Source of the DNA: Planctomycetota bacterium | GTDB taxonomy: Bacteria > Planctomycetota > Planctomycetia > Pirellulales > Thermoguttaceae | Direction: 5' to 3' | Length of the DNA stretch: 39,937 bases | Assembly: GCA_029550925.1 (NCBI GenBank) | Contig: JAKPGL010000053.1 | Coordinates: forward strand, 1-39,937 | Shown: piece after piece, positions 9,936 to 25,722 of the stretch | Position numbering within the stretch: the stretch's first letter is position 1 | Layout of the letters: each line of letters begins with the position of its first letter | Notes under the pieces: model-generated | The model's database searches: none | Seen by the model: the letters and a program-made list of their open reading frames with translations, nothing else | Told to the model about the DNA's origin: nothing | Program-made: the position numbers and the translations under genes

Positions 9936-10988
9936 TCAGGGCGATACATCCAGAAGGTGGGCGGCGTAGCCGAGCAGCACAAAAGCGGCGCCCAGCACGG
10001 CCAAGGCAATCCACATCCAGCGCAGCGCCCGCCTTTTGCCGCGCCATTCGCCGCTGAGAACTCCCCACAGGTTGGAAAACAGGATGATGGTGCAATAGAA
10101 GACGGCCCAGCCGACCGATTTGCCAAACTTGCCCATCATCGCCGCTCCCCGTCCGTACAGGGCGATCGAGGCCATCCAGATCAGGCCCATCAAGGCGGCC
10201 AAAAACCAATGCCCTACCCCGCCCGCCGTCCAATACCGCGACCAGGTCCGGTTCCGCGTCAGCAGCACCGAACAATAGACGGCGTTGGCCAGGAAACTGC
10301 CCAACAAGGGCCACACCCACAAGGCGTCGGCCCCGGCCAAAGCATCCGCCCCATGCGCTACGGCCGACTCCTCGATCGGGCCGCCAAAGTAAAACGCAAA
10401 ATTCAGCATCGGGTCCAGCAGCCCCGAGGCGATCACCACAGCCAATCCGAGCGCCAACCGACGGCTGATCCGCCGGCCCGGATCGGATGCCCTGTCTGTC
10501 TCCGGCGATGGCGAGGCTTCTTGTTCCCCCTGCAACCCGGCAAAAGCGCACAGGCTCACCCCGCCGATAATCACTCCGACGCCCAACACGGTAACCAATC
10601 CGCCCGCCGTCAAAAATGCCGCCGGGTCTTTGAAACCCATCGTCGCCAGCGATCCGATCGACACACTCAGGCCAATGGTAATGGGAAACGTCAGGCTGAT
10701 GCCTACAAGGTCCAAGCCTTTGCCGAACAAAAAGTTGGCCGCTCCCCAGAGCACTCCGAAGGAAAACACCAGCAGGATCACCTTGGCCCCGGCGTCGGCA
10801 TAGACGGCGCCCAGATCCGGTACTGTACAAAAGGCCAAAATCCATCCGACGGCCACCATGGCGACCGCCGAATAGACCAACCAGGTATTCTCCCAGGCCC
10901 AGCGGGTGGTTGCTTTTAGCGGCAAGGCATAGGCGGCGTTTAACGCCCCGGCTAGTCCGACAATCATCAAACCAATAAGCAGGTTCAT
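9936..10988 (-). CDS. RhaT-family (L-rhamnose/proton symporter-like) permease
   Basis: A 350-residue integral membrane protein with about ten hydrophobic helices and the layout of the RhaT branch of the drug/metabolite transporter superfamily. Family-like stretches include W-A-W-E-N-T-W-L near residue 30, F-G-V-L-W-G-A-A-N-F near residue 85, and the conserved C-terminal helix with N-L-W-G-V. It would import L-rhamnose or a similar sugar with protons across the inner membrane. A charged linker (about residues 168-195) separates two halves. The ATG at 10988 begins right at the first helix; upstream in-frame codons encode a Pro/Arg-rich stretch unlike the family. It diverges from the aminotransferase gene, with a promoter, leader hairpin and direct repeats in between. 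Substrate is inferred from family only. Confidence 0.82.
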   Translation of the reverse strand: MNLLIGLMIVGLAGALNAAYALPLKATTRWAWENTWLVYSAVAMVAVGWILAFCTVPDLGAVYADAGAKVILLVFSFGVLWGAANFLFGKGLDLVGISLTFPITIGLSVSIGSLATMGFKDPAAFLTAGGLVTVLGVGVIIGGVSLCAFAGLQGEQEASPSPETDRASDPGRRISRRLALGLAVVIASGLLDPMLNFAFYFGGPIEESAVAHGADALAGADALWVWPLLGSFLANAVYCSVLLTRNRTWSRYWTAGGVGHWFLAALMGLIWMASIALYGRGAAMMGKFGKSVGWAVFYCTIILFSNLWGVLSGEWRGKRRALRWMWIALAVLGAAFVLLGYAAHLLDVSP

Positions 10989-11041
10989 CGCATGGGCCCT
11001 ATTCCCAAGCAGAAAGCCGCAGTCTGAACATGTCCGTTCTG

Positions 11042-11086
11042 TTCCGCCGGACCTCTGGCCCAGCGGATGATTGGGCGTCGGCGGAA
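11042..11086 (-). promoter_or_regulatory. Leader-RNA hairpin upstream of the permease
   Basis: TTCCGCC (11042-11048) pairs with GGCGGAA (11080-11086). Inside it, GAC pairs with GTC (11050-11052, 11077-11079) and CCCA with TGGG (11059-11062, 11072-11075). The promoter at 11110-11138 would place this whole structure in the 5' leader of the RhaT-like gene, about 54-98 bases before its ATG. It matches no riboswitch class that I recognise. Confidence 0.4.
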
Positions 11087-11109
11087 AAAACAAAAGGAAA
11101 CGGAGGTGG

Positions 11110-11138
11110 AATATATGCCGTTTTCCGAGGCCGGGCAA
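11110..11138 (-). promoter_or_regulatory. Putative sigma-70-type promoter for the permease gene
   Basis: On the minus strand, TTGCCC (11138-11133), 17 bases, TATATT (11115-11110). The -10 matches five of six positions and the -35 four of six. A weak -35 fits an activator-dependent promoter. Confidence 0.45.
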
Positions 11139-11161
11139 GTTCAGAAGCGACGGCGCCCTCG

Positions 11162-11194
11162 AAAATGCGCAAATTGAAACACAAAATGCGCAAA
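11162..11194. promoter_or_regulatory. Direct repeat AAAATGCGCAAA, candidate activator site
   Basis: Two identical 12-mers at 11162-11173 and 11183-11194 are spaced 21 bp start to start, i.e. two helical turns. They lie about 60-90 bp upstream of the predicted permease transcription start. This is the usual geometry for an AraC/XylR-type activator binding two half-sites on one face of DNA. The binding protein is unknown. Confidence 0.4.
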
Positions 11195-11348
11195 AAGTCC
11201 TTTTCCGCTCCTGCTCAGCACTTTAGACTGAAGGAAACTCTCCGCAGAAAAAAGTTTCCCTGGATCGGCGGAATGCGGAATTGTTCCGAAAGCTTGTCGA
11301 TCCGGGAAGAAGACCAAAATCCTTCCACTTGCCCAAGGACCTGTACAT

Positions 11349-12572
11349 ATGCAACCTCAATGGCCTTGTGAATTTCCCGGCGTGCATTGGATCGACGAAG
11401 AGGAAGAGCAGGCGGTGCTGGACGTGCTCCGCAGCCGGACGCTATTTCGGCATTACGGACCGGCCAAGCCGAAGTATGTGGAAACCCTGGAGGCGGCGGC
11501 GCGGGAGTTCTACGGCGTGCGGTACGCCTTGGCCGTCAATAGCGGCACCGGCGCCCTGACCACGGCGATGGCCGCCTTGGGGATCGGCCCCGGCGATGAA
11601 GTGATCGTGCCCAGTTTTATGTGGGTGGCCACTGTGGCGGCGGTGGTCCAGGCCAACGCCATCCCGGTCCTATGCGAGGTGGACGAATCGTTTACCATGG
11701 CGCCGGCCGACCTGGAAAAGAAGATCACCCGCCGGACTCGTCTGATTGTGCCGGTCCACATGGCCGGTAGTCCCTGCGATATGGATCGGATCATGGCCAT
11801 TGCCGCTCAGCATGGAATTCCGGTGCTGGAAGACGTGGCCCAGGCCAACGGCGGCTGCTACCGAGGCCGAAAACTGGGAACCTTCGGCGCCATGGGCATT
11901 TTCAGTTTCCAGTTGAACAAAAATGCCACCGCAGGCGAAGGCGGCCTGCTGGTTACCAATGACGAACGTCTTTACTGGCGGGCCTTTTCCGCGCACGATA
12001 TGAGCCTGTTCTGGCGGGACGCTCAGCCGGTCGATCCTGAGCCGGACGTTCTCACTTGGCCCCAGGGCCGACGGATGCCCGAATTGTGCGGCGCGGTGGC
12101 CTCGGTCCAGATCCGAAAACTTCCCCAGATCGTCCAGCACATGCAGCAATCCAACCGCCGGATGCGCGCCCAATTGGAAGGCACGCCGGGCTTGCAACTG
12201 CGTCGGCTCAACGACCCAGAAGGCGATGCCGGCCCCTTTCTTATTTTTCTACTGGAAAACGAAGCCAAGGCGATCCATGCAGTCCGGCAGATGAAGGAGG
12301 CCGGCCTTCAGAGTGCGGTCCGTCTGGCCGACTACGGGCTGCACATCTACTCGAACATCCCCGCCCTGGTGAGCAAAACGACCCTTTCCTCGGCGGGTAA
12401 TCCCTGGTCGCTTGAGCAGAACGCCCAAAGCGTGTATCGTTACGCCAAAGGGGCCTGCCCCGCAAGCGACGCCCTGTTCGCCCGCTCCATCCTGCTGCCG
12501 GTGCCTTCGCGCCTGACGGAAGAACAGGAAAATTGGGCGGTCCAGGTGATTAAGAAAGCGGTGCAGCCATGA
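11349..12572 (+). CDS. DegT/DnrJ/EryC1/StrS-family PLP aminotransferase
   Basis: A 407-residue fold-type I PLP enzyme of the sugar-aminotransferase family, which transfers an amino group to a keto-sugar or related carbonyl. It is full length for the family. Visible landmarks are S-G-T-G-A-L (residues 65-70, phosphate cradle), V-P-S-F-M-W (88-93), E-D-V-A-Q (161-165, the Asp/Gln that contact PLP), and S-F-Q-L-N-K-N (186-192), in which Lys191 is the expected Schiff-base lysine. The start ATG at 11349 follows a weak AAGGAC. The stop overlaps the next gene's start (ATGA, 12569-12572), so the two are translationally coupled. The substrate cannot be deduced; nothing else for nucleotide-sugar synthesis is nearby, so a catabolic or modifying role is possible. 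Confidence 0.88.
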   Translation: MQPQWPCEFPGVHWIDEEEEQAVLDVLRSRTLFRHYGPAKPKYVETLEAAAREFYGVRYALAVNSGTGALTTAMAALGIGPGDEVIVPSFMWVATVAAVVQANAIPVLCEVDESFTMAPADLEKKITRRTRLIVPVHMAGSPCDMDRIMAIAAQHGIPVLEDVAQANGGCYRGRKLGTFGAMGIFSFQLNKNATAGEGGLLVTNDERLYWRAFSAHDMSLFWRDAQPVDPEPDVLTWPQGRRMPELCGAVASVQIRKLPQIVQHMQQSNRRMRAQLEGTPGLQLRRLNDPEGDAGPFLIFLLENEAKAIHAVRQMKEAGLQSAVRLADYGLHIYSNIPALVSKTTLSSAGNPWSLEQNAQSVYRYAKGACPASDALFARSILLPVPSRLTEEQENWAVQVIKKAVQP

Positions 12573-13807
12573 ACTCGCGAGATCGGATCCTAGCGGTCAT
12601 TGAAGGTCGGCCGGTCGATCATACGCCGCTCCTGTTTTGGTGTTTCGGGTTTCCAGCGCCGCCCGGTATGCAGTGGCAGACCAACGGCCAACCGGTTCCT
12701 TTCTGGTACACCAAACGCTTGGAGCATATCCACACGCTGCCCCATCCCTGGGAACTGGCCGACGAATTCCAACGGGCCGAGGCGTGGTTGTCGCTGGGCG
12801 TGGACGACCTGCTGGAAGTGTCCGTTCCCTGGGGCATGGCCCCGGAAATACGCTATCACGACCAGCGCCTTCCGCCCGGAGCGTCCGGCGGCGATCCGCG
12901 ATATCCGGTGTTGGTTCGGGAGTACGAGACGCCGTCGGGCCGCTTGCGCCATGCAGTGCGCCAGACTGGGCCGGAGCCGGAAGGCTGGCCCGTCCAACCG
13001 GACTATGTCCCCCTGTTTGAAGATTACAATGTGCCCCGGGCGATCCAGCACGCCGTCCGTAGCCCCAAACATGTGCCGATGATCCGCCATCTGTACCGGC
13101 CGCCCGACCAATTGCAACAGGGCTGGTTCCTAGAGCGGGTGGCCCAAATGCGTCCCTTCGCCCTGGAGCGAGGTCTGGCCGTCCAGGCATGGAGCGCCTT
13201 CGGCATGGATGCGGCCGTCTGGCTCACGGGGCCGGAAGGAGCGGTGATGCTCGCCTTGGACGCCCCGGAAGCCTTCCGAGAGCTGATGGAAACCATCGCC
13301 GAAACGGACTACGTCCGCACCGAACTGGCCGCCGCTGCCGAAGGGGTGGATATCGTCTGCCAGCGCGGCTGGTACTCATCCACGGATTTTTGGTCGCCTA
13401 AGCTGTTCGATGAATATGTGTATCCTTATACAGCGGAGTTGGCGGCCCTGGTCCATCGGTACGGCAAAAAGTTCGGATACGTGGTTACCACAGGGCTAGC
13501 GAAGATCGGACAGCGACTGGCCGACGCCGGGGTCGATTTATTGTATTACATTGATCCGGTGATGGATAAAATTTCCTTAGAGACAGCCCGTGAACTTTTC
13601 GGCGGTCGGACCACCGTGGTGGGCGGAACTAGCGCGGTCAGCTTGGCTTCCGGCCAGCCGGAGCGGATCCGCCGCGAAGTCCGATCGGCCCTGGACATTC
13701 TGGGGCCTACCGGCCGGTTTATCCTGTCGGCTACCGACGCCCTTTTTCCCGATACCCCCTGGGAGGGCGTCCGGCAAATGATCGACGTTTGGAAGGAATC
13801 CTGGTAA
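12569..13807 (+). CDS. Uroporphyrinogen-decarboxylase-like protein (URO-D/MtaA superfamily)
   Basis: A 412-residue TIM-barrel protein of the URO-D superfamily. The N-terminus reads N-S-R-D-R-I-L-A-V-I-E-G-R-P-V-D-H-T-P, the standard opening of this superfamily. The R-Q-A-G-R substrate motif of genuine haem-pathway URO-D is absent; the matching place reads L-L-F-W-C-F-G-F. It therefore more likely belongs with the methyltransferase-like or unassigned members (COG0407 type). Late motifs G-Y-V-V-T-T-G, D-L-L-Y-Y-I-D-P-V and F-I-L-S-A-T-D-A-L-F-P-D-T-P fit the C-terminal barrel. It is coupled to the aminotransferase by a 4-base overlap, so the two probably act in one pathway. No corrinoid-binding protein is seen beside it. 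Function is left open. Confidence 0.82.
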   Translation: MNSRDRILAVIEGRPVDHTPLLFWCFGFPAPPGMQWQTNGQPVPFWYTKRLEHIHTLPHPWELADEFQRAEAWLSLGVDDLLEVSVPWGMAPEIRYHDQRLPPGASGGDPRYPVLVREYETPSGRLRHAVRQTGPEPEGWPVQPDYVPLFEDYNVPRAIQHAVRSPKHVPMIRHLYRPPDQLQQGWFLERVAQMRPFALERGLAVQAWSAFGMDAAVWLTGPEGAVMLALDAPEAFRELMETIAETDYVRTELAAAAEGVDIVCQRGWYSSTDFWSPKLFDEYVYPYTAELAALVHRYGKKFGYVVTTGLAKIGQRLADAGVDLLYYIDPVMDKISLETARELFGGRTTVVGGTSAVSLASGQPERIRREVRSALDILGPTGRFILSATDALFPDTPWEGVRQMIDVWKESW

Positions 13808-14299: not shown

Positions 14300-17200
14300 T
14301 TATCGGAATTGCATACGCACGGTTACCGGCTGGAAGGGTTTTACCGGTACGGTCAGGTGATGTTCGTCGGCGGGCAGTTCGGCCTGGTTTTCTTCGGCCA
14401 AATTGGCGAGCCAGGCTTTTTGGACGCGGAAATGGGGGAAGGTGATTTTGGCTTGGGCCGCCTGGCCGATCGATTCCCAAAGCCGAAGGATCATGCCCTG
14501 GCCGTCCTCGGCCTGCTTGAACGTAAGCAGCATCAGATGAGCAGGTTCGACCTGGCAGAGGCTCATCGTTGGTTCCAAGCGGCCGTCTGATTTACCTTCG
14601 ACCACCACCGGCTTGAGCGGATTGGCTGCCGACCAGGCGAATTGCCCTAACTGGCCGGTGCGCCAATCGCCCTCCAGACTCGTCAGCGAAAACCGATAGA
14701 GGAGATCGGCCTGCTGGACCACCGGGAAATTGGTGCGGAGATTGCTCGCATGGATAAATGAATAAATGTATCCTTTGATGATGTCCTCCGGCTTGACAAA
14801 CGGTCGGCCGAAGTCCGGGGCGGTAAAACCATGATGCGCCTGCGACGTATAGCACGGCCACAAACCGCCAAACTCCACCAGATGCGCTTCCAACGGCGTC
14901 ATCACCACACTGTGCCGGCCGTCGGAAACCGCCGCCCAATGTTGCATCGCATAATAATTCGTGTTCGAGCCGGGCAGTTGATCCTCGAACGGCCGAATCA
15001 CTGACATCGGCCCTTCCAAGGCAAACTGAGGTTTTTCCATCCGAAACGGAAAGGCCACATAAAGTTCCAGCATTGCCGTGGCGTCCCGAAGCAGCCGAAC
15101 CGCCAGATCGACCCGCTTGAGCTTTTCGTAAAGGATGATCTCCTGGCTGACCTGGGGGCAGCCGGGCGCTTGGGTGGTAACCAGCAGGCTGGCATAAACG
15201 GGGCCGGTTTGCCCGGTCCGAATGACGGCCTTTTGCGCCGGGGCCAGTTGGGCCGTCTTGACCTCTTTGACCACCAGTTGGCCCAGCCCGTGCGGGGCGT
15301 CCGGATCCACTAGCTCCCGCCGGAACTGCTTGTCGTAGAGGCTCTGGATGGCCCCGGTCTGCGGATCGAGCACCAGGCGGAAATAGCGGTTTTCCAGGGT
15401 GTTCTGTCCGATCCGAAGACTACTGTCCGAAGTGGTTTGATCCGGAGAGGATTTTTCGGAGGAGCGGGCCTCTTTGGCAGCAGAGGGTTGAGCATCATCT
15501 TCGGACGGTTTCCGGGCAGATACGGCCGACTTGGCCGATTCGCCCTTTTGGGCGGCCGGAACCAAGCGATAAGTCTTCCAGCCCAACGGCGGCGCCTCCT
15601 CGGCCGCAAAGACCAGCTCGAATCGCTGCGGCGGGTTGAACTGTCCCCGGCCGTGGCGAAAAGCAGCGTCTTGGGCCGGGGCTTGGGCCGAGCTGATCTC
15701 CACAATTTGGCACCGTAATCGGGCGCCGGTTTCCATATCCACCAGTTCCGGCGGATGAACTGGATCAAAACCTTGCTCCGGTGCTCCGAAATCCGCCAGG
15801 CGCACCACATCCGTTCGGGCAAACAGGAGCGGATTAAACACCATGATGTATCGGCCCTGTTCCGTCCGACGGACAGCCCCGGCCAGGTGGTGGACGCTTC
15901 GGTCCAGGACGCCCTCGGCCAGCCCAGCCGCCCGATACGCATACCGGGCCTTATCCGCCCAGGACCAGTCCTGCCGTCGGCTCACCTGCAACCCGGAGTG
16001 CATTCCCCAGGTATGCTCGTCGTAAAGGAGCATATTGTCGTAGGCTTGGGCAAGTTCCTGGTCCGGATAGGCGGCACCGGTTAGCAGCGAGGCCACAGCA
16101 GCCCATCTTTCCGCCGTGGGCAACAGGTCATGGGTACACCGATTCCGTGTGGTTTCCCGGGCCGTGGAGGTAGCACCGACGACATAATCGGTTTCCGGCA
16201 AATCGCCCCGGAAGGTGCGCATGTCCTTTTGGTTTTCGCACTGGCGGCGGAGTTTTTCAAAAAACATGGCGTTGGTGGCGACATACAGCCGGGGATAGGC
16301 CCATCGGCTGTTCCACTCGCGCACAATCTGGCTTGGCAGGATGCTGGGCGGAGTATTGTCCCCGCAGCCGTAGCCGGCAAACCGCACCACCGAAAAGGGC
16401 GTTCCCTGCTTTTCCATCTGCCGGAGCATTCGGGGCAGGTTCTCTAAAACGTCCTCATAAGAGTCGGGCGACCAGCAGCCATAGCCGCCCTGGTAATAGA
16501 CCAAAATACGCTGTCCGTCCGGCCCCAGCCACCAGAAGGCGTCGGGTCTGCCGCGGCGTAAAATGGCCGACTCGTCCCAGAAGGTATGAATATCGTGGCG
16601 TCCCCACTCGAAGTAGTTGGCCAGGCCGGCAAAAAAGCCTTCCACGCCGGCGCCGACCAATACGGTGGGCAGGCCCCAACTCAGCCCCGGAATATCGGTC
16701 GTGCTGGCCGTGCGGATCTGGGCCCCAAACCGCCGCTTCAGCCGAAACGACGGATACATGGCCCGGACCAGCTCCTCGTGGGCCAGCATGTTCGTAATCA
16801 AATTGCCATAGAGGGCCTGCACTTCGATCCGGCCTTCTCGGAGATATTTGCCCAACTTTTCCAGCACTTCCGGCGGCCGGTTTTCAAGGTAATGTTGCAA
16901 GGACCAACTGCCTTCGACCGTATATCGAAACTTGGCCTCTTCGGGGAAATCGTCGGTCTGTTGGCAAAACTGGAGCACCTGGTCGTAAAATCGCTCATAG
17001 AGCCGAAGCACGTTTTCGATGGTATCCGTATAGCCCAGGTCATGATGCGAGATGGGCACCAGGCAGACTTCCCAGCGGCGGCTGGGCTGCCAGGTCATAG
17101 TGCGCCGATCCAGCGGCTTGCCGGCCGCCCGCAGCGTCAGTTCCACTTCGGCCGGCTTCTCCAAACCCGGCATGTGGGCCTGCGCGGTAGATTTGCCTTT

Positions 17201-17689
17201 GGCAAGTTTACCCAGGGGAGTAGCAATCTGGCCGTCGGGCCATTGGACCACTAGTTCGGCTTCGACCGGCTCTCCGGAGTTTTCCACGGCCAGTTCGGCC
17301 ACCTGGAGCAGCCGGCCGTCTTTTTGTACGTACAGCGGCGTGGGTTCCACGGCCAGGATTTGCACTGCGGTCTTGGCTGCCGGATTGGCCTGGGGACCTT
17401 CTGCATTGGCCCCAACCGGAGTATGTGTCTCGGCGGCAGGTTCATTGGCAGCGGCGCTGGCGGGGTGTTCGGCTGCCTGGACGTTCGCCCCATCGCCAAA
17501 ACCAAGTAGGCTTTGCGGCCCTTCTCCCCATAGCCGGGAGAACTTGGCGATTCCGGCCAGGCCGATCAGCATAGTCCCGGCAATCAGCCCGAAAATAAAA
17601 GCCGTTTGCCCCCGCCCTCTCGGCGTCCATCGGCGATCAACCAACCTGCCCATTGAAAGACGAAGAGTAGGAATCCTCTTTAGTCGCAT
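14300..17689 (-). CDS. GH38-type alpha-mannosidase-like glycosidase, membrane-anchored
   Basis: A 1129-residue protein of the GH38 type. The ATG at 17689 has AAGGAGA about 9 bases upstream. An N-terminal membrane helix (about residues 29-46) follows a very basic start, so the protein is anchored or exported. After an Ala-rich linker and a small beta-domain (about 108-200), the GH38 catalytic domain begins at V-P-I-S-H-H-D-L-G-Y-T-D; the HHD (215-217) matches the family's first metal-binding residues. Asp332 in T-T-D-I-P-G is the best candidate nucleophile. The beta-rich C-terminal domain is interrupted at about residue 660-700 by a Ser/Lys-rich low-complexity insert. The reaction is inferred as removal of alpha-mannose or a related sugar. 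It stands alone on the minus strand, 140 bp after the lipoprotein gene. Confidence 0.85.
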   Translation of the reverse strand: MRLKRIPTLRLSMGRLVDRRWTPRGRGQTAFIFGLIAGTMLIGLAGIAKFSRLWGEGPQSLLGFGDGANVQAAEHPASAAANEPAAETHTPVGANAEGPQANPAAKTAVQILAVEPTPLYVQKDGRLLQVAELAVENSGEPVEAELVVQWPDGQIATPLGKLAKGKSTAQAHMPGLEKPAEVELTLRAAGKPLDRRTMTWQPSRRWEVCLVPISHHDLGYTDTIENVLRLYERFYDQVLQFCQQTDDFPEEAKFRYTVEGSWSLQHYLENRPPEVLEKLGKYLREGRIEVQALYGNLITNMLAHEELVRAMYPSFRLKRRFGAQIRTASTTDIPGLSWGLPTVLVGAGVEGFFAGLANYFEWGRHDIHTFWDESAILRRGRPDAFWWLGPDGQRILVYYQGGYGCWSPDSYEDVLENLPRMLRQMEKQGTPFSVVRFAGYGCGDNTPPSILPSQIVREWNSRWAYPRLYVATNAMFFEKLRRQCENQKDMRTFRGDLPETDYVVGATSTARETTRNRCTHDLLPTAERWAAVASLLTGAAYPDQELAQAYDNMLLYDEHTWGMHSGLQVSRRQDWSWADKARYAYRAAGLAEGVLDRSVHHLAGAVRRTEQGRYIMVFNPLLFARTDVVRLADFGAPEQGFDPVHPPELVDMETGARLRCQIVEISSAQAPAQDAAFRHGRGQFNPPQRFELVFAAEEAPPLGWKTYRLVPAAQKGESAKSAVSARKPSEDDAQPSAAKEARSSEKSSPDQTTSDSSLRIGQNTLENRYFRLVLDPQTGAIQSLYDKQFRRELVDPDAPHGLGQLVVKEVKTAQLAPAQKAVIRTGQTGPVYASLLVTTQAPGCPQVSQEIILYEKLKRVDLAVRLLRDATAMLELYVAFPFRMEKPQFALEGPMSVIRPFEDQLPGSNTNYYAMQHWAAVSDGRHSVVMTPLEAHLVEFGGLWPCYTSQAHHGFTAPDFGRPFVKPEDIIKGYIYSFIHASNLRTNFPVVQQADLLYRFSLTSLEGDWRTGQLGQFAWSAANPLKPVVVEGKSDGRLEPTMSLCQVEPAHLMLLTFKQAEDGQGMILRLWESIGQAAQAKITFPHFRVQKAWLANLAEENQAELPADEHHLTVPVKPFQPVTVRMQFR

Positions 17690-17767
17690 TGGTAAGGTCT
17701 CCTTTTTCTAGGGGCCAAAGGAACCCAGCTCCGGACTCCCTCTCCCATAGATTACCCACCCCGCGGA

Positions 17768-17788
17768 GGGCAGTCCACCGGATTGCCC
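17768..17788 (-). terminator. Strong hairpin after the lipoprotein gene
   Basis: GGGCAGTCC (17768-17776) and GGATTGCCC (17780-17788) form a 9-bp stem with one G-T pair around a 3-base loop. It lies 42 bases past the lipoprotein stop (17830) on the minus strand. There is no clear T-run, so a terminator role is likely but not certain. Confidence 0.4.
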
Positions 17789-17829
17789 CTCAGCCAGACG
17801 CCCAATCGGCGGTCGATCCGGGCGGACGA

Positions 17830-18288
17830 TCAATCGGTAAGGTCAAAGGTAAAGTCGTTGGGGCCTTCGGCGGTTACCTTGGCCTTTAGCGGCGAGGTAG
17901 CCGGGGTGGTATATCGGGCGGGAACTAGCTGCCGGATACGCGGCGGTCCAGGGCCTCGCATGTCATCCGGCGCCCCAGAGGAGGAGGCCGCACCGTTCGG
18001 CACCGGGACATATTTGGAGATGATTACGGTATGTTCCCCGATCAGAGCACCATCCTCGGTGGAAAAAGTTTCCAGTCGGAATCGGCCTTCCTTGTCGGTG
18101 GTTCCTGTAGCAGGCGGACCACCCTGGGTGTGAAACATCACCCGAGCGCCTTCCAAAGGTTGACCTTTATAAGTGACCTTGCCGGTTACCTGAACGGTTT
18201 TCGGTCGTTTCGGGCCGCACCCAAAGGGCAACACCACGGTAAGAGTAAACACCGACAATAGGAAAATCGCCCTTGCCGTAGCAGACAT
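17830..18288 (-). CDS. Small lipoprotein with carboxypeptidase-regulatory-like beta domain
   Basis: A 152-residue protein with a strong ribosome-binding site (AAAGGAG). It has a signal peptide ending L-P-F-G-C-G, which suggests lipid attachment at Cys24, although Pro at -3 is atypical. The mature part (V-T-G-K-V-T-Y-K-G-Q-P-L-E-G-A-R-V-M-F) is the usual start of a Ig-like carboxypeptidase-regulatory/transthyretin-type beta domain, followed by G-x-T-D-x-E-G-R-F. Such lipoproteins commonly sit just downstream of DUF1559 genes in planctomycetes, as here: it starts 89 bp after the stop of the chimeric gene. It probably acts in the cell envelope; the partner is unknown. Confidence 0.8.
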   Translation of the reverse strand: MSATARAIFLLSVFTLTVVLPFGCGPKRPKTVQVTGKVTYKGQPLEGARVMFHTQGGPPATGTTDKEGRFRLETFSTEDGALIGEHTVIISKYVPVPNGAASSSGAPDDMRGPGPPRIRQLVPARYTTPATSPLKAKVTAEGPNDFTFDLTD

Positions 18289-18377
18289 CCGCTCTTCTCC
18301 TTTGAGACGTTCCTTTTTGGATTCGTCCCCCCTGGAGTTTCTATTTAGCTGGGTCTGTAGGGGGGGAATAGCGGGGG

Positions 18378-19988
18378 TCAGTAGTTGGCCTCGATAGGCA
18401 GACCGTCCCAGCGGTCGCCGAGTTTTTGGTAGGTAACGTAGTCGATTCCTTCGGTGAGGAACCGGACCGAACCGTCGCAGAAGACAAACTGGGCGCCGCC
18501 CGGATGGAGCGATTTGAAACCGCAGGCTTTGCCGTAAGTTTCTTCATTATGGCACTGATTGGGATCCGTGGTGTAGCCAGGTTCTCCTGGGCAGGTCGGA
18601 TAGTTGATCGGCGGGGTGGTCATCAGCCACATGGAGTTGATGTGCATCCAGCCGTCGCGCAGGTGGCTGCTGCATTCGGGTCGGGCCTCGCCCATGGCGA
18701 TCGTATTGGAGGTGCCGTCCCGAATGTCGCTGAAACTGGCGGACCAAAACATCGAGGAAAACGGTCCGGAGACTTTGCTGGGGTCCATGGAATCGCCGTG
18801 GAAGAGGTTGTTGGGGATATTTCGGCCCCAATAGTTTCCTCCTTCCGAGCAACGGAAGCTTTGGGCGTTGCCGACGTTCATGCCGTAGTGGCCCAAGGCC
18901 CCCTCGCGTTTGTCGAGTCCGCCACCGGGCCAATAGAACAACCGTCGGTTGCTCGGGCAAAAGAACGTGGAAATCACTTGCTTATACACCGGCTGGTCCG
19001 GCTCCACCACAAAACTATATAGTTCCGGATTCCGGGTAAAGTTGATCTTATCGTAGAGGGCCTGCTGTTCGATGTACGGCAGGATGCGGATCAGATAGCC
19101 GCCTTTCATGCGGTCGTCCAGAGAGGGGTAGTACCAATGGTCCGGGCAATAGGCGCCGCAGACAGCGCCGTTGGGCGGCAAGACGCCCCACTGCTGGGCG
19201 TACAGTTGGCAGGCCAGGCCGAGCTGCTTCAGATTATTGGCGCACTGGATCCGTCGGGCCGCCTCCCAGCCGATCTGCTCCGACGGAATCGCCACACTCG
19301 ATAGCGGCGGACTGCATAGGGTACACTCGAACTCATCATCATCCACCCCCAGCAGGGCCACTTCGTCCGGCACACGAAGCCCCACTTGCCGACATTGGTC
19401 GGCCAAGTACCGCGCCGGAATGTCGTTGGAAGCCAAAATGGCTGCGGGTTTCGGCAAATCCAGGAGCCACCGCTGCACCCGCTGATCCTGCCCTTGCCAG
19501 CGGCGGGCGCCGGGCATATCGGGCAGATACTCGCCGTAGCAGGCGGAGACCGAACAGCCGGCCTCGGCCAGCCGTTCCGTAAAACTCTGCTCCCGAAGCC
19601 TGCAGTAGTAGGCCTCTCGGCTTCCGTAGAATCCGAAGTTTCGGAATCCGCGGTTTAGGAAATACTCGGCGGCCAGTCGGCCCACGGCCCGGTGATCCAC
19701 ATCCACCACCGGCACGCCCACCTTCGGAAGCATACAGGCGATATCGACCACCGGTTTGCCCAGGCGTAAGATTTGCTTGGCCAGCGGCCAGGCGCCCAAA
19801 TGGGCGATGATGCCGTCCGGCTGCCACTGTCGGCAGGCCCGCACCGTGGCCGTATCCGGCGGCCCGTTCCGAAATAGCCAGTGCGGCTTGTCAATGGCAT
19901 AGGCCCGCACCCCTCGGATCACATTCCGACAGAACGTTACGTCCTGCCCCACCACCAACGCCACCCGCCGAACCAAATCCCGCTCCAT
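18378..19988 (-). CDS. Chimera: XylR/LacI-type ligand-binding domain fused to DUF1559
   Basis: A 536-residue open frame made of two unrelated halves. Residues 1-241 match the sugar-binding domain of XylR-type regulators: V-A-L-V-V-G-Q start, Y-G-S-R-E, A-I-L-A-S-N-D-I-P-A-R, P-D-E-V-A-L-L-G-V-D-D-D-E and P-L-S-S-V-A-I-P-S-E-Q-I-G-W. The AraC-type helix-turn-helix region that should follow is absent. From residue 247 (I-Q-C-A-N-N-L-K-Q-L-G-L-A) the protein is a DUF1559 type II pseudopilin-like domain, including the terminal H-X9-DG motif (H-P-G-G-A-Q-F-V-F-C-D-G). Its usual prepilin N-terminus is absent. The junction is E-A-A-R-R (242-246, bases 19251-19265), a sequence normal in both families. 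With no export signal the DUF1559 half would stay in the cytoplasm. A recombination product or an assembly join are both possible; function is doubtful. Confidence 0.85.
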   Translation of the reverse strand: MERDLVRRVALVVGQDVTFCRNVIRGVRAYAIDKPHWLFRNGPPDTATVRACRQWQPDGIIAHLGAWPLAKQILRLGKPVVDIACMLPKVGVPVVDVDHRAVGRLAAEYFLNRGFRNFGFYGSREAYYCRLREQSFTERLAEAGCSVSACYGEYLPDMPGARRWQGQDQRVQRWLLDLPKPAAILASNDIPARYLADQCRQVGLRVPDEVALLGVDDDEFECTLCSPPLSSVAIPSEQIGWEAARRIQCANNLKQLGLACQLYAQQWGVLPPNGAVCGAYCPDHWYYPSLDDRMKGGYLIRILPYIEQQALYDKINFTRNPELYSFVVEPDQPVYKQVISTFFCPSNRRLFYWPGGGLDKREGALGHYGMNVGNAQSFRCSEGGNYWGRNIPNNLFHGDSMDPSKVSGPFSSMFWSASFSDIRDGTSNTIAMGEARPECSSHLRDGWMHINSMWLMTTPPINYPTCPGEPGYTTDPNQCHNEETYGKACGFKSLHPGGAQFVFCDGSVRFLTEGIDYVTYQKLGDRWDGLPIEANY

Positions 19989-20067
19989 CCCTCAGCCCTC
20001 TGCAGAGGTTTTGCTATTTATTGCGAAGAACCACCTACATATTTTGCGGTCGGCTGGATGATACGTC

Positions 20068-20084
20068 CACAGGGCAGTAGGAAA
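20068..20084 (+). repeat. Shared 17-mer CACAGGGCAGTAGGAAA, copy A
   Basis: Sixteen of seventeen bases match 35126-35142 (CACAGGGCAATAGGAAA), in another intergenic region 15 kb away. Both regions also share the 18-mer and the palindrome pair listed separately. Confidence 0.5.
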
Positions 20085-20115
20085 ACCCGGTACGGAAGAC
20101 GTGATGGAATTCGTA

Positions 20116-20133
20116 GAATAGTTCAGTCGAATA
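20116..20133 (+). repeat. Shared 18-mer GAATAGTTCAGTCGAATA, copy A
   Basis: Seventeen of eighteen bases match 34847-34864. In both places it precedes the palindrome pair in the same orientation, by 80 bp here and by 10 bp in the other copy. Confidence 0.6.
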
Positions 20134-20180
20134 GGGTAGCTTGTCTTTTCCTCCCCGGGAAGAAGATTTTCCTACCTGGG

Positions 20181-20224
20181 AAAAAGAGTTGTCATTCCCG
20201 AGAAAAAGAGTTGTCATTCCCGCG
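20181..20224 (+). repeat. 22-bp tandem duplication running into the palindrome
   Basis: Two adjacent units (20181-20202 and 20203-20224) differ at one base. Each reads AAAAAGAGTTGTCATTCCCG plus two bases. The second unit merges into the left palindrome, so the duplication copied the edge of the element. Confidence 0.7.
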
Positions 20225-20289
20225 CAAGCGGGAATCCAGAAAAGTCCATGGTTTTCATGAACTGGATCGGGAGCTTTCCCGGGGATGAC
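20213..20289. repeat. Inverted pair of dRS3/REP-like palindromes (REPIN-like), copy A
   Basis: The left palindrome (20213-20239) begins GTCATTCCCGCG and ends CGGGAATCCAG. The right one (20262-20289) is its diverged inverse, beginning CTGGAT and ending GGGGATGAC. A 22-bp spacer separates them. The core ATTCCCGCG/CGGGAAT is the arrangement known as dRS3 in Neisseria and seen in intergenic repeats of many bacteria. No transposase is nearby. Confidence 0.7.
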
Positions 20290-20552
20290 AAGAAAGGACT
20301 CTTCTGTTCGGCTAACGTGTTCTTGACGGCGGGAGGGATGAGGCCGGGGGAGCAAATCCGCCAAATCCTGGAAAACTGGGGTTGCGGAGGAGGTGGCCTG
20401 GCCTATTCAATCCCGGTCGGAATGACGGGTCTCCAAGGGGAAGGACCCCTCCTCACCAATGGACGCCAAACGTCTCGAACAGCAGAACAGTTTAGGACTT
20501 GATCAGGCTGGGGCGGCACAATCCAGAAGCAGAAAGCGATCAGACCGCGGCG

Positions 20553-20671
20553 GCATCCTGCAAAATCACTCACAACTTAATGAAAAATCACCACGTAATC
20601 AGGGTAATCAGGCCGCAGGAGCACCATGCAAAGTCAGTCACAACTTAATGAAAAATCACCACGTAATCAGG
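20553..20671. repeat. Direct duplication of the kinase gene's 3' end
   Basis: A 51-base unit at 20553-20603 is repeated at 20621-20671 with four mismatches. The second copy contains the kinase gene's last codons and stop (20656-20658); the first lies downstream, outside the gene. A smaller 9-base duplication (GTAATCAGG twice) joins the copies, so slipped replication is a likely cause. Confidence 0.75.
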
Positions 20672-23600
20672 CCGCGACGGCGCAGCTCCAGAGCCACTTT
20701 GACGAGTTCCAGCATCTCCGGCGTCCAGCGAACGCCTATATCCCCGCCGTCCGACGCCTTCCCAATACAAGGACTACCAGGCCGAAGCCGATAGTCCCAA
20801 TTGGTCGGGTCCATAAACTGCGGATCGGTCAGGAAACAATCTTGGCTCCCCTCCGGCGGCCGCCCCTGACCAAAAAACGCACTGTGCTCTATCCTTCCTT
20901 TGCTTCCGGGCAGAAGAATAATATCTCGAACAATGGAATCGGTAATTGTATGAGAGTCCCCGCTTATTAGTTTGATGTTCCCGTTGATCGTAGAAGAATG
21001 AAACTTGGAGGGAAACGCCATACATTCGCAGTTTCCCACGAAAAGGCAATTCATCAAAATAAAAGAGTTGTTAATCCCACTGAAGCACCCTAAGATGATG
21101 CTGTAATTTCCTTTAATCTGCCCCCTCCAGTTGTTTATGATGTTCTTTCCTTGGGTATATAAAAGAACATGGTGAAGAGCCAGAACAGGAGACAAGGGAA
21201 TATTTGAATGCGTTGTCAGCAGGGCTGCAGGTTGTGGATTCAATTTCAGCACTATTAACCACTCCAGGGTAAGCTGGGGGGCATCGGTTGTGATCAGATC
21301 CTGGGGTTTAGAGTCAGGTTTGGGGAGGAGGATGGGCCAACGGCCTCGTTTGCCCCGGATGGTAAGGCCATTTTTTACCTGGGGGATCACGAGGTATTCC
21401 TGGTAGGGGCCGTTGTCCTGGATTTCGATCAGTTCGCCGCCTCGGGCTGCATCGATGGCCGCCTGGATGGAGCGGAAATCCGCCTTGCCCTTTATCGCCA
21501 CGGTCAGCCGTGGCCCCAGGTTGGCCGTGGCTTTTTCCAATTCTGAGATCGGCGGTTGCCGGCTGGTGTCCAGAACCACCGTCGTCTCCGCATATTCTTC
21601 AGCCCGCAGTTTTTCTACCAAAGGTTTTACATCGTGAAGCTCTTGTTCTTTGTAGAGTTTGACGGCCTCGGCGTAGAGTTTTTCTGCTTCCGTGTCGCGC
21701 TGGGCGGCCGCTAGCACCGCCTGTACCCCTTGCAAAAGTTCCTGGTGCCTGCGGCGCCAGTCGGCCAAGGCTGGTCCCTTTTCCAGCCGATCCAGAGCCG
21801 ATCGGGCCGAGGCATACTCCTTCTTTCGCAACTGTTCTGCCAGTTCCTTGAGCAACGGGTAGCTTGCCAGTTCCAGGTGTTCCTGGACCGAAAGGCCCTT
21901 CTGCTGGGCCTGGCTGAAGTAGCGAGTTGCCTCGGCCGACTGCCCCACCGAAGCCAAAAACACGGCCGCCTTCAGCAGGTCGTCCGGCTTGGCCGGGTCC
22001 AGCACCAGATCGACCAGTTTCCGCGATGCGGCCGGGCCCAGATTGTTCCAGGCAATCGTTTCTGTCTTCTGCCCCGAAAGTTCACAGGTGATTTTTTCCT
22101 CATCAACTTGTACTACCTGGCCGGGCATGCCCCGAATGCCCAAATCGCTCTTCTTCAGCGGCGAAGGAGCCGATTGGATTTTTCCCATCGCCCGCTGTTT
22201 CCACTCAGCAAGCCACTGGAGCTCCTGCTGCCGAACCTGCCAGCGCCGGGCCAATTCCGGCTCCGAGAACCGCACCGCTTGGCCCTCCTGGATGGCCCCG
22301 GCAAAATCCCACTCGTGCACCTTCTGTTCGATCGGCTGGAGCTTCTGGGTAAACTGGGCCTCCTTGGCCTCCCACTGGCTAAGTTGCTGCTCCAGTTTTT
22401 CCCAGGCCACCTGGATGGCCGGTTTGCCGGGCGGTGCTCCCGGCAAGGACGGCGGCTCTTCCGGTTTTGTCTCTGGTTTTTCCCCCGGCTTCGGGGGCGG
22501 CTTCTCAGCAACCTTCTCCTCCGACTTCGGCTCTTTCTGCTCAGGCGGTTTGATCTCTAGTTTGGGAACCGTGCGCCGCCGACACATCCAGAGGTCAAAC
22601 CCGCCTTGACCACCCGGCCGATTGGAGGAAAGTAGAAGGGTAAGCCCATCCGCCGAAGGTCTAAGCCACCATTCCTCAGCACTGCTATTGATCGGCGCCC
22701 CCAGATTGACCGGAGGACCAAAAGGCTCGTCCACGGAGGCCCGCCAACTCATCCAAATGTCATAGTCCCCTTGTCCTCCTGGACGGTTGGAGTGAAATAG
22801 AAGGAGAAGCCCATCTTTTGAAAGTTCAGGTCCCCCTTCGCTACTACTGGTATTGATCGGAGGTCCCAGATTGACCGGAGGACCAAAAGTATCTTTCGGC
22901 GAAGCTCGACGACTCATCCAGATGTCATAGTCCCCTTGGCCTCCTGGACGTTTGGAAACGAACAAAAGGATGAGTCCGTCAGCCGAAAGTGCAGGATTAC
23001 CGTCAATATTGCTACTGTTGATCGACGGTCCCAGATTGACCGGAGGGCCAAAAGTATCTTTCGGCGAAGCTCGACGACTCATCCAGATGTCCCAGATGTC
23101 CCAGATGTCATTGCCCCCTTGGCCCCCTGGACGTTTGGAAGCGAATAAAAGGATAAGTCCATCGGCTGAAAGGGCAGGCTCAGTCTCATCATGGCTACTG
23201 TTGATTGGGGGTCCCAGATTGACTGGAGGGCCAAAAGGCTCGTCCACGGAGGCCCGCCGACTCATCCAGATGTCACGGCCCCCTTGGCCCCCGGGGCGAT
23301 TAGAATGAAATAAAAGGATCAGCCCGTCGGCGGAAAGTTCGGGAGCGTACTCACCGGAACTACTATTGATCGTCGGTCCGAGGTTTACTGGTTCACCCCA
23401 GCTTTCGATCCAGTTCTTGATCGCCTCAGGGACTTCGATAGGCACTTTCTGGCCCGGCGTCTCCGCAGGTTTCGATTCTTCTGGAGGTGTCGATTTCGGA
23501 GTGGGGGGTGGTTCCGATTTGGGTTGATCTGCGGGTTGGGTTTCTGGCTTTTTGGTAGGTTGGCTGGGGATGACCAGGGGGCCTTTTGCCGACTTGGCTT

Positions 23601-25137
23601 GGGCAACCGGCGCCCGTTGGGTAGCCGGCGTCCGTTCCCGGAAGACCACCACCAGGACCACCACGACGGCGACCAGAAGGACCGGCAGGGCGGCGGCCAG
23701 GCCCCAGACCCAAGCAGGCATTCGTTTTAAGGCTGCTTGCAGGCCAGCCCACCAGCCGGCCAACCCACCGGCACCAGCCGGTTTGCCTGGGGCGCCCAGG
23801 CCTGGCATGGTAAGGCCTCTGGTGGCAGGGTCTTTGCCCCGGGCTACCGGCGGCGGACTCGGCCCACCGGGCTGCTGGGCTACCGGCGGAAACGCACCGG
23901 CCGATCTCTCCCCAGGCGCCGCACCGGCCCTCACTACTGGCATCGTCCCCGCCTCCGCATCGGGCGGCTGCCAGGTCTCGGTCTCCTCGTAGGCGGCCGC
24001 TTTGCGGGCCTCTTCTTCCGCCCGCCGGACTAGCCAGGCCTGCAACGCCGAACTGGTGCTGCTGGCAGATTCCTCCTCCGGGCCTTGGGCTTCCAGGCCG
24101 ACCGGCGCACCCACCAAACAGGCCTCCAACGCCCGGATCACCTCGACCATCGACTGAAACCGGTCCTCCGGCCGTTTGGCCACCATCCGCTGAAAAATCC
24201 GGTCCAGGTCCTCGGACACATCCGCCCGCACCGACCGCAACGACGGAATCGGCGCATCCCGATGCGCCAGGAGCACCTCCACCAGCGTTTCCCCCTTATA
24301 CGGCGCCTCCCCCGTAAGCAGCCGATACAGCGTACACCCCAATGAATAAATATCCGCCCGATGATCCACCCTGTGGGTGCTGACGGCCTGCTCCGGCGCC
24401 ATGTAATCGCAGGTTCCCATCACCTGGCCAGTACCGGTCAGTTGCTCGCCGGTGGCAGGGTCCTGGCCCACCGGCCTCAGGCGGGCCAGACCCATATCTA
24501 AAATTTTCACCACGCCGGAACGGTCTAGCAGCAGGTTGCCCGGCTTGATGTCCCGGTGGATGACGCCCTGCTGATGGGCATAGGCCAGTCCCTTGGCCGC
24601 CTGAATCACACACTCCAACGCCTCCGGCACGGCCATCGGCCCATGCTGCTTAACCAGCCGGGCTAGGTCCTGGCCATCCACATACTCCATGACCAGATAG
24701 TGAATCCCCTGGTGCTCACCGGCGTCGTAGGCGGTAACGATGTTCGGATGATTCAGCCGGGCCGCCGCCTTCACCTCCCGATAGAACCGCTCGACCGCCT
24801 TGGGGTCCTGCATGGCCTGCGGCCGAAGTGTTTTAATGGCCACCAGCCGATCCATACGCCGATGGCGGGCCTTGAGCACCATCCCCATGCCGCCCTGGCC
24901 GATCTTGTCCAACACAATATATTCCCCGAAGGCCAGCCACTGGGTCTTGCCCTCCCAGAGACAGGAGGCCTGAAACCGGCTGAGCAGCCCTCGGCGGACC
25001 AAATGGTTTCGGAGTTCTTCGGCTGTAGCCGACCGGCCCTGGGAGATCAGCTCCTGCTTGACCTGTTCCACCTGTTCTGGCTGAAGCAAACCGCAGGCCA
25101 GCACATGCCCGCTAAAGTCTTCTAATGTGGGCGACAT
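20656..25137 (-). CDS. Ser/Thr protein kinase with PD40 propeller and beta-helix tail
   Basis: A 1493-residue membrane kinase. The ATG at 25137 follows GGGAGGGTGGGG; a further in-frame ATG at 25260 has no such site. A small helical domain (1-65) precedes a Hanks-type kinase domain (about 72-340). The domain shows G-Q-G-G-M-G-M-V (80-87), Lys102, H-R-D-I-K-P-G-N (194-201), D-M-G (214-216) and A-P-E-Q, so it should be active. A Pro/Ala-rich linker leads to one membrane helix (about 473-500). Outside the membrane come five TolB/PD40-like repeats of about 55 residues (about 580-858; each has P-V-N-L-G-P-x-I-N-S-S, S-A-D-G-L-x-L-L-F and N-R-P-G-G-Q-G), a Glu/Lys/Pro-rich helical region, and a right-handed beta-helix-like region (about 1200-1450). 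It probably senses envelope or cell-wall glycan and phosphorylates cytoplasmic targets. It diverges from the receiver/FHA-histidine-kinase pair. Confidence 0.9.
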   Translation of the reverse strand: MSPTLEDFSGHVLACGLLQPEQVEQVKQELISQGRSATAEELRNHLVRRGLLSRFQASCLWEGKTQWLAFGEYIVLDKIGQGGMGMVLKARHRRMDRLVAIKTLRPQAMQDPKAVERFYREVKAAARLNHPNIVTAYDAGEHQGIHYLVMEYVDGQDLARLVKQHGPMAVPEALECVIQAAKGLAYAHQQGVIHRDIKPGNLLLDRSGVVKILDMGLARLRPVGQDPATGEQLTGTGQVMGTCDYMAPEQAVSTHRVDHRADIYSLGCTLYRLLTGEAPYKGETLVEVLLAHRDAPIPSLRSVRADVSEDLDRIFQRMVAKRPEDRFQSMVEVIRALEACLVGAPVGLEAQGPEEESASSTSSALQAWLVRRAEEEARKAAAYEETETWQPPDAEAGTMPVVRAGAAPGERSAGAFPPVAQQPGGPSPPPVARGKDPATRGLTMPGLGAPGKPAGAGGLAGWWAGLQAALKRMPAWVWGLAAALPVLLVAVVVVLVVVFRERTPATQRAPVAQAKSAKGPLVIPSQPTKKPETQPADQPKSEPPPTPKSTPPEESKPAETPGQKVPIEVPEAIKNWIESWGEPVNLGPTINSSSGEYAPELSADGLILLFHSNRPGGQGGRDIWMSRRASVDEPFGPPVNLGPPINSSHDETEPALSADGLILLFASKRPGGQGGNDIWDIWDIWMSRRASPKDTFGPPVNLGPSINSSNIDGNPALSADGLILLFVSKRPGGQGDYDIWMSRRASPKDTFGPPVNLGPPINTSSSEGGPELSKDGLLLLFHSNRPGGQGDYDIWMSWRASVDEPFGPPVNLGAPINSSAEEWWLRPSADGLTLLLSSNRPGGQGGFDLWMCRRRTVPKLEIKPPEQKEPKSEEKVAEKPPPKPGEKPETKPEEPPSLPGAPPGKPAIQVAWEKLEQQLSQWEAKEAQFTQKLQPIEQKVHEWDFAGAIQEGQAVRFSEPELARRWQVRQQELQWLAEWKQRAMGKIQSAPSPLKKSDLGIRGMPGQVVQVDEEKITCELSGQKTETIAWNNLGPAASRKLVDLVLDPAKPDDLLKAAVFLASVGQSAEATRYFSQAQQKGLSVQEHLELASYPLLKELAEQLRKKEYASARSALDRLEKGPALADWRRRHQELLQGVQAVLAAAQRDTEAEKLYAEAVKLYKEQELHDVKPLVEKLRAEEYAETTVVLDTSRQPPISELEKATANLGPRLTVAIKGKADFRSIQAAIDAARGGELIEIQDNGPYQEYLVIPQVKNGLTIRGKRGRWPILLPKPDSKPQDLITTDAPQLTLEWLIVLKLNPQPAALLTTHSNIPLSPVLALHHVLLYTQGKNIINNWRGQIKGNYSIILGCFSGINNSFILMNCLFVGNCECMAFPSKFHSSTINGNIKLISGDSHTITDSIVRDIILLPGSKGRIEHSAFFGQGRPPEGSQDCFLTDPQFMDPTNWDYRLRPGSPCIGKASDGGDIGVRWTPEMLELVKVALELRRRGLITW
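23083..23109 (-). repeat. Three tandem 9-bp units in the kinase gene
   Basis: CCAGATGTC occurs three times in a row, inside the second PD40 repeat. It encodes D-I-W-D-I-W-D-I-W where the other four repeats have one D-(I/L)-W. The frame is kept. The insertion lengthens one propeller strand by six residues. Confidence 0.9.
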
Positions 25138-25722
25138 GACCCCACCCTCCCAAAGCCCCCGTGTGCTCCCGGCAGCTCCACCCCTCCGACCAGCTATCCG
25201 GCGGCCCCAGAAAAATCCAAGCGATAGTCCGAAGTCTAAAACTCTGAGGAGAATCTCCAATAATATAATTTCCCATCTTCACTAAAAAAAGAGGGGGAGG
25301 GAAAACTTGCAACCCATCTGAGGGGGGACATATGGAAAGAACGGCTCGATAGACTCCCCCCGGAGAACTTAGAATAACTGCCGTGCAAAGGAACCTTTCC
25401 TAGAGAGTGTTTCAAAACCGATCCCCGGCGTAAAGAAAAGAAAAAAATGTTACAGAAATATGACCTGCTGGGTATCCCCTCGCACCCGGTTTTGGGGTTC
25501 TTCTAAAAATTCGCTTTGACATGATTGGGAAAGGCCGGTATTTTTTGGCCCTTCGGGAAGGGATTTTGTGATAAGGGGTTGTCCCCGAAAGAGGGGTATA
25601 AGGAGTTTCGGTTCGCAAAGAAGAAAATTTGGATAGATTGGACAAAAAGGAAAAGATTGCGAAGATGGGAAGAGGGGCGAAAGCGGGATGACTATAGAAC
25701 CGCCCCCAAAAGGAGCAATGTC
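25138..25722. other. Divergent regulatory region between the two signalling transcripts
   Basis: No gene is supported here. On the plus side there is a good promoter at 25516-25544. On the minus side a TATATT at 25262-25267 has only a poly-T region at the -35 position. The spacer also holds polypurine runs around 25284-25305. Confidence 0.5.
25516..25544 (+). promoter_or_regulatory. Putative sigma-70 promoter for the receiver/histidine-kinase operon
   Basis: TTGACA (25516-25521), a 17-base spacer, then TATTTT (25539-25544). The -35 is perfect and the -10 matches four of six. Transcription would start near 25551, just at a small hairpin (CCCTT-CGGG-AAGGG, 25549-25562) that would cap the 5' end of the mRNA. 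The leader to the start codon is about 170 bases. Confidence 0.5.

Follow-up and report, generated by a model that had tools for sequence, protein, structure and literature searches.

How half of a sugar-sensing regulator and the body of a DUF1559 protein came to share a single reading frame is the question raised by one locus in the 39,937-base stretch of planctomycete DNA analysed here (the window), which is the entire contig C105 of a draft genome of 4.9 Mb in 233 contigs. The hybrid XylR/DUF1559 frame is real as sequence. We consider that it probably arose by a deletion that joined neighbouring XylR-type and DUF1559 genes, with the functions of both parents lost. The features concerned are as follows.

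18378-19988, reverse strand: chimeric XylR/DUF1559 frame, a single open frame of 536 aa
19266-19988, reverse strand: sugar-binding half of XylR type (residues 1-241), whose intact paralogue on contig C125 is 59% identical
19251-19265, reverse strand: join, E242-A-A-R-R246, with E-A-A(-R) codons present in both families
18378-19250, reverse strand: DUF1559 half, residues 242-536 including the join, without a prepilin/transmembrane segment
17830-18288, reverse strand: putative lipoprotein of 152 aa, carboxypeptidase regulatory-like (top Pfam match 30.7 bits, just below the cut-off of 32.3)
14300-17689, reverse strand: GH38 alpha-mannosidase-type gene, possibly the third gene of the transcript

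Pfam assigned the two halves to different families. PF13377 (Peripla_BP_3) matched residues 107-247 (E=1.6e-28, 100.3 bits) over profile positions 1-141 of 167 only, and PF07596 (DUF1559) matched residues 242-516 (E=3.8e-45, 155.5 bits) over profile positions 5-266 of 268. The H-X9-DG C-terminal motif is kept (TIGR04294, 40.4 bits against a cut-off of 19), and residues 8-248 match the sequence of E. coli XylR (PDB 4FE4 and 4FE7) with E about 1.5e-17. The first half is the N-terminal part of an AraC/XylR-type regulator, truncated inside the final helix of the sugar domain. Among the matches listed, its closest relatives are a protein of genome G002 (60% identical over residues 6-245) and the C125 paralogue, and those of the DUF1559 half, in G015 and G087, are 50-53% identical over residues ~231-534; these identities place both halves far above chance. 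Within the 536 residues, Pfam detected at E<=0.1 neither an HTH family, such as the HTH_18 domain of XylR-type regulators of the AraC family, nor the N_methyl family that represents the prepilin/transmembrane segment of DUF1559 proteins. No remnant of either part lay outside the fusion in the window at E<0.05.

Comparison with intact relatives delimits the missing segments. All three intact XylR relatives scanned (C125, G041 and G253) carry a complete Peripla_BP_3 domain (1-167), whose end falls at residue 272-274, and an HTH_18 domain that starts at 302-307. Both intact DUF1559 proteins scanned, from the tandem relatives in G041 and G253, have an N_methyl match ending at residue 23-25 and a PF07596 match starting at 27-29. 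The original prediction that the DNA-binding part and the prepilin signal had been lost together is supported by this comparison, and its claim that the DUF1559 half begins just past the prepilin segment is borne out, the fusion matching from profile position 5. Its further claim that the sugar-binding half ends right where the helix-turn-helix would start does not hold: the half stops ~60 residues earlier, and the sugar domain itself is shortened. The final ~26-30 residues of the sugar domain are gone as well as the HTH. With no recognised DNA-binding or export part, the chimera would be expected to reside in the cytoplasm.

The join lies at a coding-strand string, GAGGCGGCCCGACGG (19265-19251), that encodes E242-R246. 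EAARR had been thought ordinary in both families, and on the XylR side this proved wrong: by motif reading, EAAR occurs in 4 and EAARR in none of 30 XylR-type relatives (34 were aligned, and the 4 that could not be read by motif were excluded), and a tryptophan precedes EAA in a single one of the 30, the gene on contig C25 of the same genome. The second arginine of EAARR comes from the DUF1559 side, and the sequence common to the two families is E-A-A(-R), about 9-11 nt. We rejected W241 as a mark of mixed codons because the XylR gene on C25 has this tryptophan too.

We compared five XylR genes (C125, C25, C32, G041 and G253) with 20 DUF1559 genes (18 from the same genome, plus those of G041 and G253), and the longest identical run at the register of the join was 11 nt; the own-genome XylR gene of C173 and the majority of the genome's 65 DUF1559 matches fall outside this comparison. 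In the tandem pair of G041 the EAA codons lie 970 nt apart, with a 9-nt identical run at EAA; in that of G253 they lie 861 nt apart, with no run of at least 8 nt at the EAA register. In-frame repeats of 8-10 nt occur elsewhere in both pairs: G041 has 17, with the EAA run ranking second, and G253 has 7. A short repeat at the join is thus no proof of how the fusion arose, and these other repeats count against the deletion account. In a repeat search of 17600-20700, no listed repeat family fell at the join.

The same two genomes retain what may resemble the starting arrangement. In G041, an intact XylR gene is followed after 452 bp by a DUF1559 gene on the same strand and then by a related lipoprotein gene, which is the order of the window; in G253 the two genes lie 352 bp apart on the same strand, and no related lipoprotein was found at this tandem locus. 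All of these genes are complete (Peripla_BP_3 with HTH_18, and N_methyl with DUF1559), and such intact pairs, in the same order and on the same strand, support a deletion between neighbours. Besides the window, a XylR gene followed on the same strand by DUF1559 within 2.5 kb was found at three places, namely G041, G253 and contig C32 of the same genome (at 2.4 kb), in a survey of 57 loci with a XylR match, many of which had only 1.5-kb flanks and some of which duplicate one place. Three more XylR relatives (L131-L133) have a same-strand DUF1559 gene 1.4-1.6 kb downstream, with another long frame between the two in L132.

We propose that the ancestor carried a XylR-type regulator, a DUF1559 gene and a lipoprotein gene in this order on one strand. 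A deletion of roughly 0.9-1 kb, a size estimated from the intact relatives, would have taken the end of the regulator (sugar-domain tail and HTH), the intergenic gap and, from the DUF1559 gene, the initial part that encodes the prepilin and transmembrane segment, and the ends would have been joined in frame at E-A-A(-R) codons present in both genes. The 536-aa product would most likely be neither a regulator nor an exported pseudopilin-like protein, and transcription of the lipoprotein and GH38 genes may now depend on the promoter of the chimera. We infer all three elements of this account, namely the deletion itself, expression and the loss of function. Most likely, the chimera is young, species-specific and devoid of its parental functions. 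The earlier suggestion that two unrelated genes had been joined at a short common sequence is thus supported, and the event was probably a deletion between neighbours, with the amendment that the common sequence is shorter than EAARR.

Several observations run against a deletion. Both tandem pairs are distant from the chimera (XylR 37% and DUF1559 44% identical in G041; XylR 47% and DUF1559 26% in G253), and the 26% identity of the G253 DUF1559 protein to the fused half slightly reduces our confidence. The parental genes of the chimera were not found in its own genome or in the relatives searched. For the closest DUF1559 relatives, 17 extended loci (L043-L045, L048 and L137-L149) were mapped, and none has a XylR sugar domain upstream. 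One of them, L145, begins at a contig end and so offers no upstream sequence, and L141 has an HTH-only match 1.4 kb off on the opposite strand. A related lipoprotein gene lies downstream of DUF1559 in all 17.

The GH38 gene has a relative in G001, of the same genus, that is 79% identical, and no XylR or DUF1559 match lies within the surrounding 20 kb there. This absence also counts against the deletion, and the ancestral order is not obtainable from GH38 synteny. In a promoter and terminator scan, sites were no commoner than in shuffles. Beside the GH38 locus, window positions 9936-13807 hold RhaT-like transporter, DegT aminotransferase and URO-D-like genes. A DegT-like gene, recognised by eye, also adjoins the paralogous XylR gene on C125, and the sugar clusters of the window and of C125 may be related. 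Upstream of the fusion, within 20144-20293 and 20539-20671 of the window, lie two kinds of repeat, an inverted pair of 18 nt (89%) and a direct one of 65 nt (88% identity, spacing 68), and 20656-25260 is occupied by a 1534-aa frame that by eye is serine/threonine kinase-like and then carries repeated INSS...RPGGQG motifs.

Elsewhere in the genome, XylR-type and DUF1559 genes are found together more often than expected. Four genes carry both a sugar domain and an HTH (C125, C25, C32 and C173), and three of them have a DUF1559 gene within 2.5 kb, against ~8% expected per gene (P about 0.002): divergently on C125, on both sides on C25 and on the same strand on C32, with none at C173. The C25 locus (L088, 1392-7719) places its intact XylR-type gene between DUF1559 genes, three in total, and beside these genes lie secreted proteins whose ends look PEP-CTERM-like by eye.

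A second damaged XylR-DUF1559 pair is present on C217 (~45359-45740; L103 ~1500-1880), where an AraC-type HTH without a sugar domain (HTH_18, E=3.7e-21) abuts, head to head, a DUF1559 gene recognised by eye, of which roughly the final 35 codons are left. A deletion within a divergent pair like that of C125 would produce such an arrangement, and it suggests that XylR-DUF1559 pairs are undergoing rearrangement in the lineage. The C217 junction was also considered as a second short-repeat deletion and set aside, as the repeat could not be demonstrated. Further candidate EAARR fusions were dropped: on C25 the copies are separate genes, each with its own prepilin segment; on C158 a long frame precedes an ordinary DUF1559; and the large protein encoded on C170 is of another kind and matches DUF1559 only weakly.

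We searched for other XylR-DUF1559 fusions in overlapping sets of 99, 119, 396 and 392 genomes that include the present one, with at most 14, 12, 3 and 3 candidates scored per genome, respectively, and, apart from the window itself, no listed match spanned both halves; the lists for the first three sets comprise their best matches, and the search of 392 genomes used a cut-off of 1e-40 and matched 36 of them. A distant fusion could have been missed by these searches. Some XylR matches extend tens of residues beyond the join (for example 6-279 in G014), in frames of ordinary regulator length. A separate scan of genome contigs, from which own-genome records were perhaps omitted, returned two loci, both matching the XylR side only.

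Neither half shows sequence decay. At positions that are the same in at least 80% of relatives, the chimera departs from the conserved residue at 0 of 41 for its XylR half (median 7% changed per relative, 34 relatives) and at 0 of 61 for its DUF1559 half (median 8%, 40 relatives), in a comparison that is projected on the fusion and thus favours it. Such preservation points to a recent event, a selected protein or an assembly error. It also counts against the deletion as we propose it, since a useless gene would decay in time.

That the assembler fused two genes which are intact in this genome or in a contaminant is unlikely in our judgement, though it carries real weight. The lack of decay in both halves would be explained in this way, as would the occurrence of the fusion in one genome only among the matches listed, and the assembly is a draft of 233 contigs with 97.5% completeness and 2.97% contamination. 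Contig ends coincide with DUF1559 matches 10 times against about 6 expected (P about 0.1), which is not a clear excess and uses contig sizes for part of the matches only; moreover, a XylR-type gene on C116 is cut by a contig end and has no matching HTH elsewhere in the assembly. Assemblers, however, normally require sequence identity over at least about 20 nt, which makes misassembly at a short repeat less likely: the longest XylR/DUF1559 identity at the register of the join is the 11-nt run, and that in genes other than the true parents. The original caveat that a misassembly at the same short repeat would look identical keeps some force and is weaker than stated, the repeat being at most 11 nt in the genes compared.

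Further evidence speaks against an artefact. A query of 321 bases around the join found no second copy of the XylR side in the genome, the best matches being 69% over 149 bases on C125 and 74% over 82 bases on C25. Three contig ends that fall inside a DUF1559 N-terminus (C49, C77 and C86) continue into DUF1559 sequences other than that of the chimera. The sole HTH match without a sugar domain, which shares 36% identity with the HTH of C125, sits in the interior of C217, where a DUF1559 remnant already adjoins it. The lipoprotein gene usual after this DUF1559 type is present in the window, and the gene order fits a tandem ancestor.

The third reading, a functional and selected fusion in which a cytoplasmic sugar-binding protein carries a DUF1559 body, is in our view improbable. 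It accords with an in-frame join without a stop and with the absence of change at the 41 and 61 conserved positions, and also with structure prediction. The AlphaFold2 model built on the correct alignment (A3, 30 rows) has a mean pLDDT of 81 and a pTM of 0.59; most of both halves reach at least 70, so that confidence in them is fair to high, and a single unbroken helix (239-267) crosses the join. The same model falls to a pLDDT of about 32-33 at residues ~218-241, the final part of the sugar domain, and this, with the missing ~26-30 terminal residues, argues against a working sensor. A model from alignment A1, in which DUF1559 rows were misplaced over the XylR half and whose DUF1559 part is meaningless, gives a helix at 236-267 and a confident ~218-241; the two models conflict on whether the shortened sugar domain closes. 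Foldseek of the chimera model returned LacI-type domains, with E. coli XylR (4fe4_A, E 4.7e-10) ranked sixth, and no separate match for the DUF1559 half was evident among the best 50.

Other features of the family also weigh against a selected fusion: DUF1559 genes here usually precede a putative lipoprotein gene, no such fusion was found in the other genomes searched, and DUF1559 proteins normally carry a prepilin segment, according to the available portions of PMC8567305. The more specific version, in which the chimera is expressed and selected as a new cytoplasmic sugar-binding protein with the last sensor helix continuing into the first DUF1559 helix, seems to us slightly more doubtful again; if true, it would represent gene birth by splicing unrelated helices at a common E-A-A motif.

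The published background is in line with a change of protein location. In the accessible sections of PMC8567305, Planctomycetales genomes have at least 41 prepilin-motif genes each, most with a DUF1559 domain, and Tuwongella immobilis has 91 proteins with both N_methyl and DUF1559 domains. Proteins with both domains were found mainly in the two detergent fractions, and the sole identified protein with a DUF1559 domain alone was present in all fractions; as far as these sections go, this pattern fits the view that loss of the prepilin segment alters location. The available portions of the DUF1559/SBP_bac_10 literature, including PMC2754498 and PMC8567305, contain no mention of a XylR-DUF1559 fusion.

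A deletion between neighbours, the reading we prefer, would bear on how this gene set changes. Planctomycete genomes each contain dozens of DUF1559 genes, which share a conserved segment just past the signal, and XylR-type genes of the present genome often adjoin them; a deletion fusing the two would be a concrete example of rearrangement in the set. Were the chimera expressed and retained, the origin of a new protein from two unrelated parents could be traced in it.

Set against known systems, the chimera shares with the XylR-type (AraC family) regulators of Planctomycetota and with E. coli XylR the same N-terminal LacI-like sugar-binding domain, and differs from them in that DUF1559 replaces the end of this domain and the AraC-type HTH. 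Like DUF1559/SBP_bac_10 (PF07596) proteins, it has a near-complete PF07596 domain, the H-X9-DG C-terminus and a putative lipoprotein gene downstream; unlike them, it has a XylR half in place of the N_methyl prepilin/transmembrane segment. Gene fusion by deletion between neighbouring genes is a general mechanism, and as in such fusions generally, same-strand neighbours would have been joined in frame at a few common bases. What sets the chimera apart from them is its pairing of a regulator with an exported protein, each of which loses its working end.
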